Source of the DNA: a virus | IMG/VR virus record: IMGVR_UViG_3300021957_000425 | Span: 1-20,031 of that record | Reading direction: 5' to 3' (one strand) | DNA length: 20,031 bases | Shown here: positions 1 through 12,125 of the stretch, one piece after another | Numbering within the stretch: the stretch's first letter is position 1 | Layout: each line of letters starts with the position of its first letter | The notes under the pieces: model-generated | Told to the model about the DNA's origin: nothing | The model's database searches: none | What the model saw: only the letters and a program-made list of their open reading frames with translations | Position numbers and translations under genes: made by a program

Positions 1-2196
1 GAAGTAAACCTCCCAGAATGGTCTCAGCCATTATTTAGTGAAGATTATCGTTATTTTGCATTAAGAGGTGGTCGTGGTAGCTCGAAATCGAGAAGTATTG
101 CTTCCATACTGGTTTTAAGAGCATCCCAGAAACCATTAAGAATCCTTTGTACGAGAGAGGTGCAGAAATCTATTAAGGATTCGGTCAAGAGGTTGTTAGA
201 TGATGAAATTGATCGACTTGGTTATAGAGATTCGTTTTTTACCAGTACAGATTCTGAGATTAGGGGTAAGAATGGGAGTTTATTTATCTTTGCAGGGTTA
301 CAGCATAATATAGATAGTATCAAATCTATGGAAGGTATTGATATTTGTTGGTGTGAAGAAAGCCAGACTTTGAGTAAGAACTCGTTGAACACGTTAATTC
401 CTACTATTAGAAAGCCTGGTTCACAGATATATTTCAGTTGGAACCCTAAAGAAGCGACTGATCCTGTTGAAGATATGTTTATTATTGGTGATCCTCCTCC
501 ACGGACTTTTTCTTTAAAGGTCAATTGGCAAGATAATCCATGGTTCCCAGAAGTGCTAAAAGAGGAAATGGAGTATGATAAGAAACAGGATAGGGGGAAA
601 TATCTCCATGTCTGGGAAGGTGAATATTTAACTAGGAGTAATGCGAATGTATTTCAAAACTGGTATAAGGAAGACTTCGATACTCCTGCTGATGCTTTTT
701 TTAGGTTTGGTTGTGATTGGGGCTTTAGTGTCGATCCGACTGTTCTGGTTCGTTGCTACGTTATTGGTAGGAAGTTATATATTGATCAAGAAGCTTGGAA
801 AGTGGGGTGTGAGATAGATGACACTCCTGCTCTGTTTGCTACGGTTCCAGAATCGGAGAAATGGCCCATAATTGCTGACTCTGCATCACCCGAAAGGATT
901 AGCTATATGAGAAAACATGGTTATCCTAAGATGATGAAAGCTTTGAAAGGTGCTAGGTCTATTGAGGAAGGTCTGGAATTTATGAGGAGTTATGAGATCG
1001 TGGTTCATCCTAGATGTAAACATGTTATAGACGAATTGATGCATTATAAGTACAAGATTGATCCTCAGACAGATGCTATTACAAATGTATTGGAGGATAA
1101 GAATAATCACTGTATTGCGGAGGGTGAGTTAGTTCTGACAGATAGAGGGCAAATACCAATTGAGGATATTGATCCAGATGTTCACATGGTTCTGACCAGA
1201 GGAGGATGGCAGAAAGTTGAAGTAAAAGCATTGATGGATTATAATAGGGATATTGTAGAAATAAGAACTAAAAGAGGAAATGTTGTTAGGTGCACACCAG
1301 ATCATCAAATATATACCGCAAGGGGTTGGTTGCAAGCTGATTCGTTAGAGTATAATGATGAGATACTTGAATTAGAGGAACATCAATGGTGCGCACAGAG
1401 GAAACAGAGTTTAACGGAAGAATATACAGAAGATACCCAGACTCAGAAAGAAGAAACGATAGAGTCTACTTCCAGAGGTCTTACACTGGGGGAACAACTA
1501 CTTTGCACAGAGAGAAATGGATGCATTTCAATGGAGAAATCCCTAAAGGCTATCAAATACACCATATTGATGAAAATCCACTCAATAACGAAATTGAAAA
1601 TCTTGAGTGCTTATCTGTTTCTGAACATGTTAGAAAGCATTGGACTCCAGAGCGACAAGAAAACCAAGTTAAACATTTGGACAAAATTAGGCATCTCACA
1701 AAAGCTTGGCATGCTTCACCAGAAGGTCACGAATGGCATGTGCAAAATGGAGCGAAATCATACCAGAACTTTGTACCAACTGAAAAAAAGTGCGAACAAT
1801 GCGAGAAAAACTTCTTGCCAAAAGCAATTGGAAACAGAGATAGGTTCTGCTCAAACAAATGTAAATCAAAGTGGAGAAGGATTTCTGGAGTCGATAACAT
1901 TGAAAAGAAATGCCCAGTATGTGAAAACAATTTTACCAGAAATAAATATGAAAAAGTTAAAACTTGTTCAAGGTCATGTGCTAACCGTTACAGATGTAGG
2001 AAAAAGCAAGAAGGTCTATGACCTAACTGTTGCAAATCACCATGAGTTTGTATGTGGACTCATGTTAGTATCGAATTGTATCGACTCATTACGCTACGGA
2101 TTAGAAGCTATACGCAGAACGGTTAAGGCTAGAGAGAATCCTGCTAATGAAATGGTTGTGGAGTCTAGGACTAATTATTGGAATAAAGGTCGATAA
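1..2196 (+). CDS. Phage terminase large subunit, 5'-partial, interrupted by an intein
   Basis: This is the ATPase-nuclease motor that packages DNA into the prohead. Reading frame 1 is open from the first base, so the true start lies upstream of the window; the ATG at 160 falls after Walker A and is not the start. Walker A (GGRGSSKS) lies at nt 67-90, and Walker B (GIDICWCEE) at about 334-360, followed by an SWNP coupling-type motif near 436-447. The RNase H-like nuclease domain shows its acidic residues at D (715-717, in CDWGF), D (877-879, in IADSAS) and D (2083-2085, in CIDSLRY). The last is separated from the rest by a 966-nt intein (1111-2076). Removing the intein restores the join NNH-CIDSLRYGLE, the usual terminase C-terminal motif, and gives a product of about 409 visible residues, near the normal family length. 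The portal gene follows after 36 nt. Family assignment is confident; relation to P22 gp2 or to PBSX-type terminases was not resolved. Confidence 0.95.
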   Translation, partial: EVNLPEWSQPLFSEDYRYFALRGGRGSSKSRSIASILVLRASQKPLRILCTREVQKSIKDSVKRLLDDEIDRLGYRDSFFTSTDSEIRGKNGSLFIFAGLQHNIDSIKSMEGIDICWCEESQTLSKNSLNTLIPTIRKPGSQIYFSWNPKEATDPVEDMFIIGDPPPRTFSLKVNWQDNPWFPEVLKEEMEYDKKQDRGKYLHVWEGEYLTRSNANVFQNWYKEDFDTPADAFFRFGCDWGFSVDPTVLVRCYVIGRKLYIDQEAWKVGCEIDDTPALFATVPESEKWPIIADSASPERISYMRKHGYPKMMKALKGARSIEEGLEFMRSYEIVVHPRCKHVIDELMHYKYKIDPQTDAITNVLEDKNNHCIAEGELVLTDRGQIPIEDIDPDVHMVLTRGGWQKVEVKALMDYNRDIVEIRTKRGNVVRCTPDHQIYTARGWLQADSLEYNDEILELEEHQWCAQRKQSLTEEYTEDTQTQKEETIESTSRGLTLGEQLLCTERNGCISMEKSLKAIKYTILMKIHSITKLKILSAYLFLNMLESIGLQSDKKTKLNIWTKLGISQKLGMLHQKVTNGMCKMERNHTRTLYQLKKSANNARKTSCQKQLETEIGSAQTNVNQSGEGFLESITLKRNAQYVKTILPEINMKKLKLVQGHVLTVTDVGKSKKVYDLTVANHHEFVCGLMLVSNCIDSLRYGLEAIRRTVKARENPANEMVVESRTNYWNKGR
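1217..1356 (+). promoter_or_regulatory. Possible sigma70-like promoters upstream of the nested HNH gene
   Basis: Two perfect TATAAT hexamers lie inside the N-terminal intein coding region. One is at 1240-1245 with TTGAAG 17 nt upstream (1217-1222). The other is at 1351-1356 with TTGCAA 15 nt upstream (1330-1335). The second would start RNA near 1363, leaving a short leader that contains the HNH ribosome binding site. In DNA this A+T-rich such hexamers also occur by chance, and the -35 matches are only partial, so this is a weak call. Confidence 0.22.
1374..1380 (+). promoter_or_regulatory. Shine-Dalgarno of the nested HNH gene
   Basis: AGAGGAA sits 5 nt upstream of the ATG at 1386, a normal bacterial spacing. 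It lies in the middle of the intein coding frame, where no initiation signal is needed for the terminase. Frame 3 has a TGA stop at 1368-1370 just upstream, so this site decides the HNH start and argues for independent translation. Confidence 0.75.
1386..2021 (+). CDS. HNH homing endonuclease nested out of frame in the intein
   Basis: A 211-residue HNH nuclease, expected to cut intein-less terminase alleles and so drive homing of the intein. The N-terminal strand region (EFNGRIYRRYPDSERRNDRVYF, residues 8-29) and the HNH core are typical of phage HNH enzymes: H41-R42 and W45, then H59-H60, D62, N67-N68, N72-L73 and H81. Two zinc-finger-like modules follow, C136-C139/C155-C159 and C176-C179/C194-C198, probably for DNA binding. 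It uses frame 3 whereas the intein uses frame 1. It has its own ATG with a good Shine-Dalgarno and ends with TGA inside the codons for the block F residues Tyr-Asp. The last zinc module therefore overlaps conserved intein sequence in the other frame. Bases here look richer in A and C and poorer in T than the flanks, suggesting a separate origin. The enzyme class is clear; the target site is inferred from location. Confidence 0.93.
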   Translation: MVRTEETEFNGRIYRRYPDSERRNDRVYFQRSYTGGTTTLHREKWMHFNGEIPKGYQIHHIDENPLNNEIENLECLSVSEHVRKHWTPERQENQVKHLDKIRHLTKAWHASPEGHEWHVQNGAKSYQNFVPTEKKCEQCEKNFLPKAIGNRDRFCSNKCKSKWRRISGVDNIEKKCPVCENNFTRNKYEKVKTCSRSCANRYRCRKKQEGL

Positions 2197-2232: not shown

Positions 2233-4368
2233 ATGAGAAACACCAAAAAGCATATAGACCTCCACTCAGATGCTAGGTCTGACTTCAATACCATCCAAGA
2301 AGTGTGCAGGGAACAGAGGGAAGAATCCCTTGAGGACAGGAGATTCTGTACTATTACTGGTGCTCAGTGGGAAGGGAACTTAGGGATTCAATATGAGAAT
2401 CGACCTAAGTTTGAGGTTAATAAGATTCATTTAAGTGTTTTTCGTATTATAAATGAATACAGAAATAATAGAATAACGGTTGATTTTTCGCCTAGAACTA
2501 AGGGAACTGATAAATTAGCTGAATTATGTGATGATATGTATCGTGCAGATGAGAAAGATTCTGATGCGATGGAAGCTTATGATAATGCTTTTGAGGAAGC
2601 TGTTATTGGTGGAATGGGTGCTTATAGGATTCGTGCTTGTTATGAAGATGAGTATGATGAAGAGAATGATAAGCAAGTTGTTAAGATTGAGCCTATTTTT
2701 GATGCTGATACTTCTGTTTATTTTGATTTAGACGCTAAAAAGCAGGATAAATCTGATGCAAAGTATTGTTATGTTCTTTCGAGCATGACCCATGATGCGT
2801 TTAGAGAGGCTTATGATGAAGAACCAACCAGTTGGCCGAGTGATGTTAATACTGATAACTTCGATTGGTTTACTCCAGATGTGGTTTATGTCGCTGAGTA
2901 TTACAAAGTTGAAGAATCTACTGAAACTAAGGTTTATTTTGAAACAATTACTGGTGAAGAAGAAACTTATTGGTTAGATAAGCTCGATGAAGAGAAAGAG
3001 CAGGAATTACTTGATTTAGGTCATACTGAAATTAGACGTAGAAAGATTAAGCAGCGTAGAATCCACAAATATATCATGTCTGGTAACAGTGTATTAGAAG
3101 ATTGTGGTTTTATTGCAGGCAAAAATATCCCTATTGTCCCTGTTTATGGCAAACGATGGTTTGTTGAAAGCATTGAACGGTTTATGGGTCATGTACGTCT
3201 GGCTAAAGATGCTCAAAGACTTAAAAATATGCAATTATCTAAACTTGGAGAGATTAGTGCTCTTTCAACGGTTGAGAAACCTATTCTCACACCAGAACAG
3301 ATTGCAGGACATGCTAATATGTGGAGAGATGATAATATTGAGGATTATCCTTATTTATTAATCAATCCATTAACTGACGAAGAAGGAAGAACTGTAGCAC
3401 AAGGCCCGATTGGATATACAAAACCTGCAAATGTCCCTCCAGCCTTGGCTGCACTTCTTCAAATTACAGAAGAGGACATGAAAGATGTTCTTGGACACTA
3501 TGAGAAAGGTGAAGAGTTAGAATCTCATATAAGTGGTAAAGCAGTTGAACTGGTTCAAAATAGATTGGACATGCAATCGTATATTTATATGTCTAATTTC
3601 GCTAAAGCTTTGAGAAGAGGTGGTGAGATATGGTTATCTATTAAACGAGATATTTGTATTGAGGACGAAAGAGAAGTTAAGACAGTTAGTTCTGATGGTA
3701 AGGTTAGTTCTAATGTTATTCGTATTACTAGAGCAGGAGAAGATGGAATTGTTGGTGTTCAAAACGATTTAGATAATGCTAATTTTGATGTAGATGTCGA
3801 GATTGGGCCTTCTTCACAAACACAAAGAGATGCTATTGTCCGTCAAGTTACTGGAATGATACAATATACGCAAGATCCAGAAACTCAGCAAGTATTGACT
3901 TCAATGGCTATGATGAATACAGAAGGTGAAGGAACTGCTGATCTGCGTGAATACTTTAGAAAGAAATTGGTCAAGATGGGTGTTGTAACTCCCACGGACA
4001 AAGATATTGAAGAAATGCAGTTGAACCCAGATCAGCCTTCACCAAATGACAAGTATTTACTGGCAGAAGCTGCTAGGGCTGAGTCTGAGGTCGATAAAAA
4101 TAAAGCTGATACTATGGAAACCATGGCTAATGCTGAGCTGAAGAAAGCACAAGCGTATCAAATCCAAGTTGAGATGGGCAAACCACCAGAACAACCTAAT
4201 GTCACTCCTTCTGAACCTAGTTATAAGGAAGAGGAGATTATGACTAAGGCTTATGTTGAGAAAGCTAAACTGGATTTACAAGCAAGAGAACTTGATCTTA
4301 GAGAACGTGAGATTGAGTTAAGATATAGCACTGAGATACCAGATGAGGGGTCTAGTGAGAAAGTTTAA
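2233..4368 (+). CDS. Portal protein, P22 gp1-like
   Basis: This forms the dodecameric ring at the capsid vertex through which DNA is packaged and ejected, and to which the tail attaches. The 711-residue length is close to P22 gp1 (725). Residues about 295-333 (IPIVPVYG, then VRLAKDAQRLKNM) and the following EQIAG and YPYLLIN segments match the P22 portal core as I recall it. The C-terminus (about residues 610-705) is a long charged helix rich in Glu, Lys and Ala, like the P22 portal barrel. The ATG at 2233 is the only usable start: in-frame codons just upstream end in stops (2221-2226), and the next internal methionine is far inside the conserved domain. There is no Shine-Dalgarno, but a promoter directly abuts the start. 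The acidic scaffold gene follows after 50 nt. Confidence 0.93.
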   Translation: MRNTKKHIDLHSDARSDFNTIQEVCREQREESLEDRRFCTITGAQWEGNLGIQYENRPKFEVNKIHLSVFRIINEYRNNRITVDFSPRTKGTDKLAELCDDMYRADEKDSDAMEAYDNAFEEAVIGGMGAYRIRACYEDEYDEENDKQVVKIEPIFDADTSVYFDLDAKKQDKSDAKYCYVLSSMTHDAFREAYDEEPTSWPSDVNTDNFDWFTPDVVYVAEYYKVEESTETKVYFETITGEEETYWLDKLDEEKEQELLDLGHTEIRRRKIKQRRIHKYIMSGNSVLEDCGFIAGKNIPIVPVYGKRWFVESIERFMGHVRLAKDAQRLKNMQLSKLGEISALSTVEKPILTPEQIAGHANMWRDDNIEDYPYLLINPLTDEEGRTVAQGPIGYTKPANVPPALAALLQITEEDMKDVLGHYEKGEELESHISGKAVELVQNRLDMQSYIYMSNFAKALRRGGEIWLSIKRDICIEDEREVKTVSSDGKVSSNVIRITRAGEDGIVGVQNDLDNANFDVDVEIGPSSQTQRDAIVRQVTGMIQYTQDPETQQVLTSMAMMNTEGEGTADLREYFRKKLVKMGVVTPTDKDIEEMQLNPDQPSPNDKYLLAEAARAESEVDKNKADTMETMANAELKKAQAYQIQVEMGKPPEQPNVTPSEPSYKEEEIMTKAYVEKAKLDLQARELDLREREIELRYSTEIPDEGSSEKV

Positions 4369-6661: not shown

Positions 6662-7417
6662 ATGCATATTCTATATGTATTAAAATTCTCGTCTGGCAAG
6701 AATTATGTTGGACAAACAACAAGAGATATGAAAACCAGATTTCTGCAACACAAAAATTCATCACTAAATGGCAACTCAAAACTGGCTGTTCATTGTGCGT
6801 GGAGAAAACATGGTGAGCCAGATGTGGACATAATTGATGATAGTTTTGAGTCATCTGAGGATTTGCATAATGCAGAGAAGTATTTAATATCTAGTCTAAA
6901 TACAATTGTCCCAAATGGGTATAATTTAGGGTATGGTGGGGAGACTGCTCCATCTAAAAACCCAATGGTTGCAAAAAAGATATCTGAAAAGGCCATTGGT
7001 AGAAAAATAGATAACTCCGAAAGACGCTCTGAGATAGCAACTGAATTGTGGCAAAGTAAAGATTACAGGAATAAAATGTCTGAGTCTTTAAAGAAATCTT
7101 GGGATGATGAGAAGAGAGAAAAAGTAAGCATAAGAATGAAAGAGTTCTGGAAGAAAAGAAAAGAGTCTGGATGGAAAATGCCAGAAAAAACTAAAGAGAA
7201 AATTAGTAATAAAGAAATAAGTCAAGAAACTAAAGACAAAATGAGTGAGTCTGCTAAGAGAAGAGGTCAGAACAATAATTGCCCTCATGCAAGAAAGGTT
7301 AATTCTGATAAACTAAAGTCACTATGGGCTGATCCAGAAAAAAGAGCAGAGAGAGTAGAAGCTTTAAAAAAGTCTTGGGTAAGAAGGAAATTGTCAAACA
7401 ACGAGAGTGGAGTATAA
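6662..7417 (+). CDS. Free-standing GIY-YIG homing endonuclease
   Basis: A 251-residue nuclease of the Seg/I-TevI type that cuts DNA near its own location in related phages and is copied in by repair. The GIY-YIG domain covers residues 1-92: Y5-V-L, Y15-V-G-Q-T, R26, H30, E72 (metal ligand) and N88 in GYNLGYGG. The rest is a basic helical region with repeated units (SESLKKSW, TKEKISNK, TKDKMSES, KLKSLWADPEKR, EALKKSW) of the nuclease-associated modular type that binds DNA. The ATG at 6662 has a near-perfect AGGAGGT (6650-6656); an upstream ATG at 6625 opens a different frame. It sits between the coat gene and a small virion-operon gene, where P22 has no gene, so it is an insertion. Its last codons contain the -35 box of a promoter for the next gene. 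Confidence 0.9.
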   Translation: MHILYVLKFSSGKNYVGQTTRDMKTRFLQHKNSSLNGNSKLAVHCAWRKHGEPDVDIIDDSFESSEDLHNAEKYLISSLNTIVPNGYNLGYGGETAPSKNPMVAKKISEKAIGRKIDNSERRSEIATELWQSKDYRNKMSESLKKSWDDEKREKVSIRMKEFWKKRKESGWKMPEKTKEKISNKEISQETKDKMSESAKRRGQNNNCPHARKVNSDKLKSLWADPEKRAERVEALKKSWVRRKLSNNESGV

Positions 7418-11332: not shown

Positions 11333-11772
11333 TGGCCGATGCACTTAGAGTTAATAGAGATGAGTTATATCGTGTTTTTCAAAACCATGAAACGGTAATT
11401 CAGTTTGAGAATTTGTTCAGTACGGTTGATGAAACCAGTAGTGGGACAGATATTGATGAGGCTTTAATTGTAGGTGGTAATGCACTAGCAAAAGCTAATC
11501 TTGTATTTGCTTTATTGAAGGATTATTTAAAGGAAACCTTTGAGACTGTTAATGAGAATCTTAAATCTTATGCAAAAGCATTTAATTATACTGGTTCAAG
11601 ATTAGATAGTGTTGTTTACACGTTTGGTTCAAAAACCATAACGAAAACATTGTCTTATACTGGTTTGAAATTAAATACGGTTGTTCTGAGTGGAGATACA
11701 CCATCTGGAATAACATTAACAAAGACATTGACTTACTCTGGTTTGAATCTGACAGGAGTTGCATACACATGA
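11332..11772 (+). CDS. Hypothetical tail protein with YTG repeats (tail-needle position)
   Basis: 146 residues, directly after gp10, where P22 encodes the tail needle gp26. Residues 1-85 look helical (LAKANLVFALLKDYLKETF). The C-terminal half holds three copies of a short beta unit: FNYTGSRLDSVVYT, LSYTGLKLNTVVLS and LTYSGLNLTGVAYT. Similar Y-T-G repeats occur in phage proteins next to tail or fibre genes. It is shorter than gp26 (233) and lacks an obvious long trimeric coiled coil, so needle function is only suggested by position. TAATG coupling to gp10, ATGA coupling to the next gene. Confidence 0.65.
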   Translation: MADALRVNRDELYRVFQNHETVIQFENLFSTVDETSSGTDIDEALIVGGNALAKANLVFALLKDYLKETFETVNENLKSYAKAFNYTGSRLDSVVYTFGSKTITKTLSYTGLKLNTVVLSGDTPSGITLTKTLTYSGLNLTGVAYT

Positions 11773-12125
11773 AAAGTATTCTTGTAATAGAAGATTCTGA
11801 GCAATCTTTGAATTATATGGAAATGATTCTAAAGAAAGATGTTAAGATGAAGGTTGATACTGCTTCTACAGCAGAGGTCGCTTTGTATAAGCTTAAAGTC
11901 AATAAGTATGATTATATTTTGTGTGATATAGAATTGCCTAAGATGACAGGCCCAGAAATACTCCTAGAATCTGAAACTCATAATGCGAAGATTTATTTTT
12001 GTACTGCTCTAGATAATGTAGAAGAAAAAATAGCTGCTTGTAATAATGGTAGTTTGAATGTTGTTGGTTGGAAAAAGAAACCAGTTTTTAAGAAAGATTT
12101 GATGGAGATATTCAAGGATGGATAA
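11769..12125 (+). CDS. CheY-like response regulator receiver domain
   Basis: A 118-residue stand-alone receiver with every key residue of the family: acidic pair E8-D9 after the first strand (ILVIEDSE), phospho-acceptor D53 (YILCDIELPKMTG), switch Thr79 (IYFCTAL) and Lys104-Pro105 (WKKKPVF). The length is that of a single receiver fold, with no output domain. In bacteria such proteins accept phosphate from histidine kinases and act through partners, for example the flagellar motor. Here it lies within a virion gene operon, overlapping the gene before by ATGA and the membrane protein after it by eight bases. A role in host signalling, motility or assembly is inference. The fold assignment is firm. 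Confidence 0.9.
   Translation: MKSILVIEDSEQSLNYMEMILKKDVKMKVDTASTAEVALYKLKVNKYDYILCDIELPKMTGPEILLESETHNAKIYFCTALDNVEEKIAACNNGSLNVVGWKKKPVFKKDLMEIFKDG

Follow-up and report, generated by a model that had tools for sequence, protein, structure and literature searches.

An HNH endonuclease gene overlapping a terminase intein in another reading frame: a probable mobile element of phage terL genes

Inteins are usually thought to hold their endonuclease either in frame or between split halves. In the window, a complete IMG/VR virus record of 20,031 bases, the first gene is terL, encoding the large subunit of the terminase (TerL), and its intein is overlapped by an HNH endonuclease gene read in another frame. 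The question that this locus raises is whether such a layout is an artefact, a fortuitously open frame or the result of selection in both frames, and how two proteins sharing the same DNA could act together.

The intein and the overlapping HNH gene

Frame 1 is open from position 1 to 2193, with the stop codon at 2194-2196, so that the two halves of the intein do not lie in separate ORFs, as those of a split intein do; the 5' end of the gene is truncated at the contig edge. The features of the locus are as follows.

1-1110, + strand: N-extein, terminase large subunit (PBSX family); Pfam Terminase_3, E 2.7e-39, and Terminase_3C, E 3.6e-13
1111-2076, + strand: TerL intein, 322 residues, frame 1, from C1 to N322, with Cys at +1; AlphaFold and Foldseek
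1111-1395, + strand: IntN splicing half with blocks A and B; TIGR01445, residues 1-95 of high pLDDT
1375-1379, + strand: Shine-Dalgarno-like GAGGA, 6 nt before the HNH ATG at 1386
1386-2021, + strand: nested HNH endonuclease gene, frame 3, 211 aa; PF13392, E 1.2e-15, and phrog_15471, E 1.4e-37
1396-1956, + strand: off-frame intein linker, the frame-1 shadow of the HNH gene; predicted to be disordered, low pLDDT
1957-2076, + strand: IntC splicing half with blocks F and G, VYDLTVANHHEF...LVSN; residues 283-322 of high pLDDT, Pfam Intein_splicing
2077-2196, + strand: C-extein, the C-terminal segment of TerL starting with CIDSLRYG; alignment to the empty terL of locus L133

The N-extein also matches TIGR01547 (E 3.3e-48). 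The intein, inserted in the TerL motif NNH^CIDSLRYG, is recognized by Pfam Intein_splicing (E 3.6e-12) and, at its N-terminus, by TIGR01445 (E 8.5e-9), the TPDH motif of IntN being located at 1294-1305. C1, T62, H65 and N322 are invariant in an intein alignment of 41 rows, and the +1 residue in the window is Cys. The HINT halves (residues 1-95 and 283-322) are modelled by AlphaFold with a pLDDT of ~97, and Foldseek matches the model to solved inteins (E 3.5e-6 and weaker). Judging by the splicing-block residues, the HINT fold and the clean insertion as compared with intein-less homologues, the element is a complete intein; its intact catalytic residues and predicted fold suggest that it would be capable of protein splicing. 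The insert could also be read as a self-splicing intron, or an intron-like RNA element with an ORF, since group I introns often harbour HNH genes, but the continuous frame, the HINT fold and the catalytic residues of an intein, intact in 41 of 41 aligned members, make this reading very improbable. A group I intron or other known RNA was rejected, as no Rfam match was obtained anywhere in the window.

The HNH protein consists of an HNH_3 domain followed by two CxxC...C(x3)C zinc-finger-like modules. Its model, built from frame 3, has a mean pLDDT of 96.8, against about 30-52 for linker residues 101-279 in frame 1. According to the original prediction, the intein blocks belong to frame 1, while frame 3 holds a complete HNH gene equipped with an ATG and a Shine-Dalgarno (SD) sequence; the Pfam and TIGR matches and the alignment confirm this. 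The original prediction had also regarded the linker as the off-frame shadow of the HNH gene, which is likewise supported. The HNH gene overlies the linker for most of its length, except for its last ~20 codons, which coincide with the beginning of the IntC fold (intein residues ~283-303); at the 3' end of the HNH gene both frames therefore encode folded protein. H41, H59, H60 and H81 are invariant in the HNH alignment (A5), and N68 and N72 almost invariant, the active-site motif of HNH homing endonucleases being thus present. By profile, the closest solved relative is I-HmuI (PDB 1u3e, E 1.1e-3); Foldseek found no significant match for the HNH model among solved structures (I-HmuI, E 0.26), and the HNH query had no match in Mycobacterium phages at E 1e-5. 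Lying out of the intein frame, the HNH gene does not provide the in-frame endonuclease of a canonical large intein.

Elsewhere in the window, a second homing-endonuclease-like gene (6662-7417, + strand, 251 aa) is located between genes of the capsid region; it matches phrog_314 (E 8.5e-21) and, weakly, NUMOD3, and another PHROG match suggests, by its name, the GIY-YIG type. An ORF of 118 aa (11769-12125, + strand) appears by eye to resemble a response-regulator receiver domain (MKSILVIEDSEQ...), which is unusual among phage structural genes.

Chance, artefact and constraint in two frames

Across the HNH gene of the window, the intein register contains no stops and the other register 23, where about 34 would be expected. 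The probability of an open intein register had originally been estimated as 4e-5; this value is too small, because the register is intrinsically stop-poor, its stops arising only from Met, Leu, Ile and Val codons before A or G. Given the HNH protein, the probability is 2e-4 with the codon usage of the window and 3e-3 with the codons of the HNH gene itself. The other register being full of stops, a single register is practicable for the nesting of such a protein.

HNH-based searches together with a frame scan yielded 102 nested loci, 19 loci with intein pieces separated by stops and 11 free-standing HNH genes, reduced after the removal of near-copies to a non-redundant set of 73 nested (HNH less than 88% identical), 8 split and 11 free loci. 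The layout that the original prediction proposed to look for in relatives is thus found repeatedly, all 73 nested loci having the same HNH family in the same register. Since the loci share descent, the trials are not independent, and the control is the comparison of nested and non-nested states of one HNH family: the intein register of the nested loci contains 0 stops against 314.6 expected, while that of the split and free loci contains 132 against 102 expected, i.e., shows no avoidance of stops. The other register of the nested loci, with 1394 stops present for 1354.9 expected, shows that the null model is well calibrated. A Met of the HNH protein cannot precede Ile, Met, Thr, Asn or Lys without creating a stop in the frame of the intein; such pairs are absent from 14,664 residues of nested HNH and occur 21 times in 3,421 non-nested residues. 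The comparison of 73 loci, with not one of about 315 expected stops present, removes the doubt about chance which the window alone would leave; an open frame arisen by chance was accordingly rejected on the stop model of the window and the 73 loci, and the dual-frame constraint originally proposed is upheld.

The same data bear on the case which the original prediction itself held to be damaging, namely that two compensating indels, introduced by sequencing or assembly, had displaced an originally in-frame HNH into another frame than that of its intein. We regard the probability of this as negligible and reject the artefact: we found nothing in its support, while the identical register and the absence of stops recur in 73 divergent loci, including the isolate genomes Highwayman and TJE1. 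Relatives with the same HNH in frame were also considered. A profile scan based on IntN retrieved 50 terL-site inteins with HNH, all in the same register, and no in-frame copies of the nested HNH family at terL. In-frame matches to HNH were confined to short distant cores, in inteins with flanks of the NP|SEI type (L280-282 and L287, at about 2501-3238), whose host, by these flanks, is probably ribonucleotide reductase.

The two frames do not seem to be held equally. In most close nested pairs, substitutions fall mostly at codon position 3 of HNH, which is position 2 of the linker codon, and in most related pairs HNH identity exceeds linker identity (e.g., 0.76 vs 0.53 and 0.56 vs 0.28; one identical pair is uninformative). 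This indicates conservation of the HNH protein, the main requirement on the linker being an open frame. As to the splicing part, the first residue is Cys and the last Asn, with Cys or Ser next to it, in all 69 extracted inteins, each of which resides in the TerL motif; this result is partly by construction, as the extraction required C, S or A as the first residue and N before C, S or T. The insertion motif in TerL is H.xDA.RY, and the position within it shifts slightly among these 69 relatives.

A start codon is present near the beginning of HNH homology in 72 of the 73 nested loci (66 ATG and 6 GTG). An SD sequence of at least 4 bases precedes 29 of these 72 starts (40%), compared with 7.3% of background ATGs; about 60% of the starts have no recognisable SD. 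The latter figure might favour the production of HNH as a TerL-IntN fusion by programmed frameshifting rather than by internal initiation, as might the constant register, for which one type of frameshift would serve all members. However, we consider frameshifting quite unlikely in view of the nearly universal start codons, the enrichment of SD sequences and the free-standing HNH relatives, which are annotated as genes in their own right. In one nested locus (L018) HNH homology extends from 2392, the HNH frame is open only from 2533 and the intein frame is intact; this HNH gene is possibly decaying.

Empty sites, free and split forms, and loss of the endonuclease

The hosts of the scanned nested elements are all TerL of one family or another, according to Pfam or PHROGs (the extein of L027 is too short), and the same terL motif is occupied in many TerL families. 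Among the nested carriers are contigs assigned to Bacteroidota, Omnitrophota, Actinomycetes and Pseudomonadota. In the records of Highwayman, TJE1 and LS06-2018-MD07, three named isolate or complete genomes, the terminase is the sole annotation over the HNH ORF.

The nearest terL (L133, 84.6% amino acid identity to that of the window) has an empty site, KNNH^VIDSLRY. Acinetobacter phage Highwayman carries a 327-residue relative of the window intein and is the only one of 80 Acinetobacter records with near-identical terL flanks that covers the insert, hence the element is dispensable. Over the matched flanks Highwayman is 99.4% identical to Acba_21. To the right of the insertion 7 of 13 nt differ, followed by 287 nt without differences, and to the left 8 of 400 bases differ; the right-flank cluster of mismatches, in this one close pair, resembles a short conversion tract that may have arrived together with the element. 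With the insert the +1 residue becomes Cys, the empty alleles having Val (L133) or Leu (Acba_21).

Two overlapping coding frames, intact splicing residues, separate conserved starts, precise insertion and patchy presence are thus directly visible in these loci. We consider it very probable that the element is a mobile terL intein and that its homing endonuclease is produced as a protein of its own, from an overlapping gene in the -1 register. A two-gene system of a splicer and a separate cutter, as had been originally proposed, is the best reading of the data, and it is from sequence that we infer splicing, internal initiation, DNA cleavage and homing. The patchy distribution and the flanking mismatch cluster are indirect signs of an HNH protein that may cut the empty allele and so drive its own copying.

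The main rival explanation takes the HNH protein for a packaging factor working with TerL, the nesting serving to keep linkage with terL and not to mobilise the intein. A role in packaging has been cited for terminase-linked HNH proteins (PMC12613952, PMC11855218), the host is TerL wherever it was checked, and free-standing HNH relatives are found near intein-less terL genes, adjoining terL in PAE1, SN1, FBPa53 and Shemara and lying upstream of terS in BP10. Nevertheless, this explanation is disfavoured, and in our opinion improbable, because HNH is nearly absent from otherwise near-identical phages, as the single occupied Acinetobacter record attests; precise insertion in a conserved motif at several nearby positions, the mismatch cluster beside the insert and mini-inteins with HNH remnants (see below) all fit homing better.

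A second set of loci differs from the nested form in that IntN ends in a stop and is followed by an HNH cistron and then by IntC. By sequence, the HNH cistron lies between apparent halves of a terL intein in L010-015, L019-021, L026, L039, L042, L124 and L126-L132, and in relatives including L014, L015 and L019-021 the halves appear to occupy separate ORFs. IntN of this set may be in any register relative to HNH, but every IntC detected is in the +1 register, with candidate start codons within the 3' end of the HNH gene or close by. In L014, L015, L019-L021, L026, L039, L042, L124, L126, L128 and L130 the IntC ORF either overlaps the 3' end of HNH or adjoins it; the register is as in the nested form, and the candidate starts are mostly GTG. 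Such registers and starts are to be expected if the split and nested forms share an ancestor with the HNH-IntC overlap. In Exiguobacterium phage vB_EauM-23 (L036, 1026-2237) the annotated TerL extends no further than the insertion motif (...EDKNNHSMAA, stop), and a free HNH gene is located downstream of TerL, with no intein half detected; terL is possibly broken or unusually split in this phage.

The IntN-based scan also revealed three HNH-less mini-inteins at the TerL motif (L222, L245 and L248), of which L245 retains, by eye, both ends of the HNH ORF in the HNH frame. In the shorter inteins of L232/L233, L263 and L279 only the C-terminal zinc-finger part of HNH is left, out of frame. These remnants suggest loss of the nested endonuclease, and at least some of the HNH-less mini-inteins look like products of HNH loss and not like ancestors. 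The tree, in which many branches are weakly supported, does not give the direction of the state changes, the nested state being old and widespread in it. The proposed origin of the element, a free HNH gene invading a mini-intein, is a hypothesis for which the existence of free relatives does not suffice.

The mobile element with a separate endonuclease, as we envisage it, would operate as follows. TerL would be made as a single frame-1 precursor, from which the HINT domain, according to its residues and fold, would splice itself out together with a passive disordered linker. Ribosomes starting at the internal ATG, as the conservation of starts and SD sequences implies, would produce the free HNH protein. 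The target of the latter would be terL without an intein, cut close to the codons of the nuclease-domain motif (N/D)H.xDA.RY; in the course of repair the element would be copied in full, at times together with a short conversion tract beside it. Selection in the HNH frame would keep the nuclease, while selection on TerL would keep the intein frame free of stops, only the -1 register being practicable owing to the stops in the other one. Should the nuclease decay, deletions could leave mini-inteins; should the continuity of the frame be lost, the intein might persist as two halves around the HNH cistron.

As for a broader generalization, we give roughly even chances to the window being the type case of a widespread class of bipartite mobile elements, 'nested inteins', whose splicer and cutter are encoded by the same DNA in a single obligatory register. 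Such elements would be convertible to split (fractured) inteins and mini-inteins, and the overlap would be a source of natural split inteins whose halves flank a free-standing endonuclease. The overlap of splicing and cutting functions in different frames, in more than 70 divergent TerL loci from phages and from contigs of several bacterial phyla, provides extensive natural material for the study of long overlapping genes, with an internal control in the nested, free and split states of the HNH family. Nested inteins may represent a testable route to split inteins, and mini-inteins of this family labelled 'endonuclease-free' merit rechecking in other frames.

Comparison with known systems

Canonical homing inteins consist of HINT halves inserted in a conserved motif, with an in-frame endonuclease between blocks B and F. 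The window element is similar to them in the HINT halves, in the conserved-motif insertion and in the location of the endonuclease between these blocks, and differs in that the endonuclease is a separate protein read in another frame instead of being fused. The fractured genes of Dassa 2009 are reported to be split inteins whose halves are separated by a homing endonuclease gene, the endonuclease reportedly belonging to a family different from the nested HNH. They resemble our split terL group, where HNH is likewise a cistron of its own between IntN and IntC; unlike them, the intein of the window is contiguous and overlapped by HNH. I-HmuI is intron-encoded, whereas the nested HNH family is associated with inteins and possesses the two additional C-terminal zinc-finger-like modules.

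Inteins of TerL proper are known from mycobacteriophages, where the tested ones splice and some of the endonucleases are active (Kelley 2016, PMC5050341). Their seven sites are in the N-terminal ATPase domain (PMC5050341), in contrast to the C-terminal nuclease-domain motif H.xDA.RY occupied here. For TaPaz, a TerL intein was reported with no mention of a nested gene (PMC8228797).

The closest precedent that we found for the layout of the window is the ShiLan domain (2025), or Pacc40 gp60 insertion, of mycobacteriophage DNA methylases, an otherwise open insertion with an HNH ORF in the alternate frame, as in the window, and in the same register. For overlapping reading frames its authors cite Gosselin 2025 ('Non-Canonical Architecture') and Gorbalenya 1998 ('Non-canonical inteins') (PMC11855218), both of which may describe related overlaps. 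Considering this precedent and the possible related overlaps, the nested layout is not categorically new. However, the ShiLan element has no intein splicing domain, and the host protein is thought to retain the insertion (Arsenault, Gosselin, Gogarten 2025, PMC11855218); its host is a methylase and no detectable ribosome-binding site was reported for its HNH ORF, while in the elements described here the host is TerL, an SD sequence is often present and, in the window, a complete HINT domain brackets the HNH gene.
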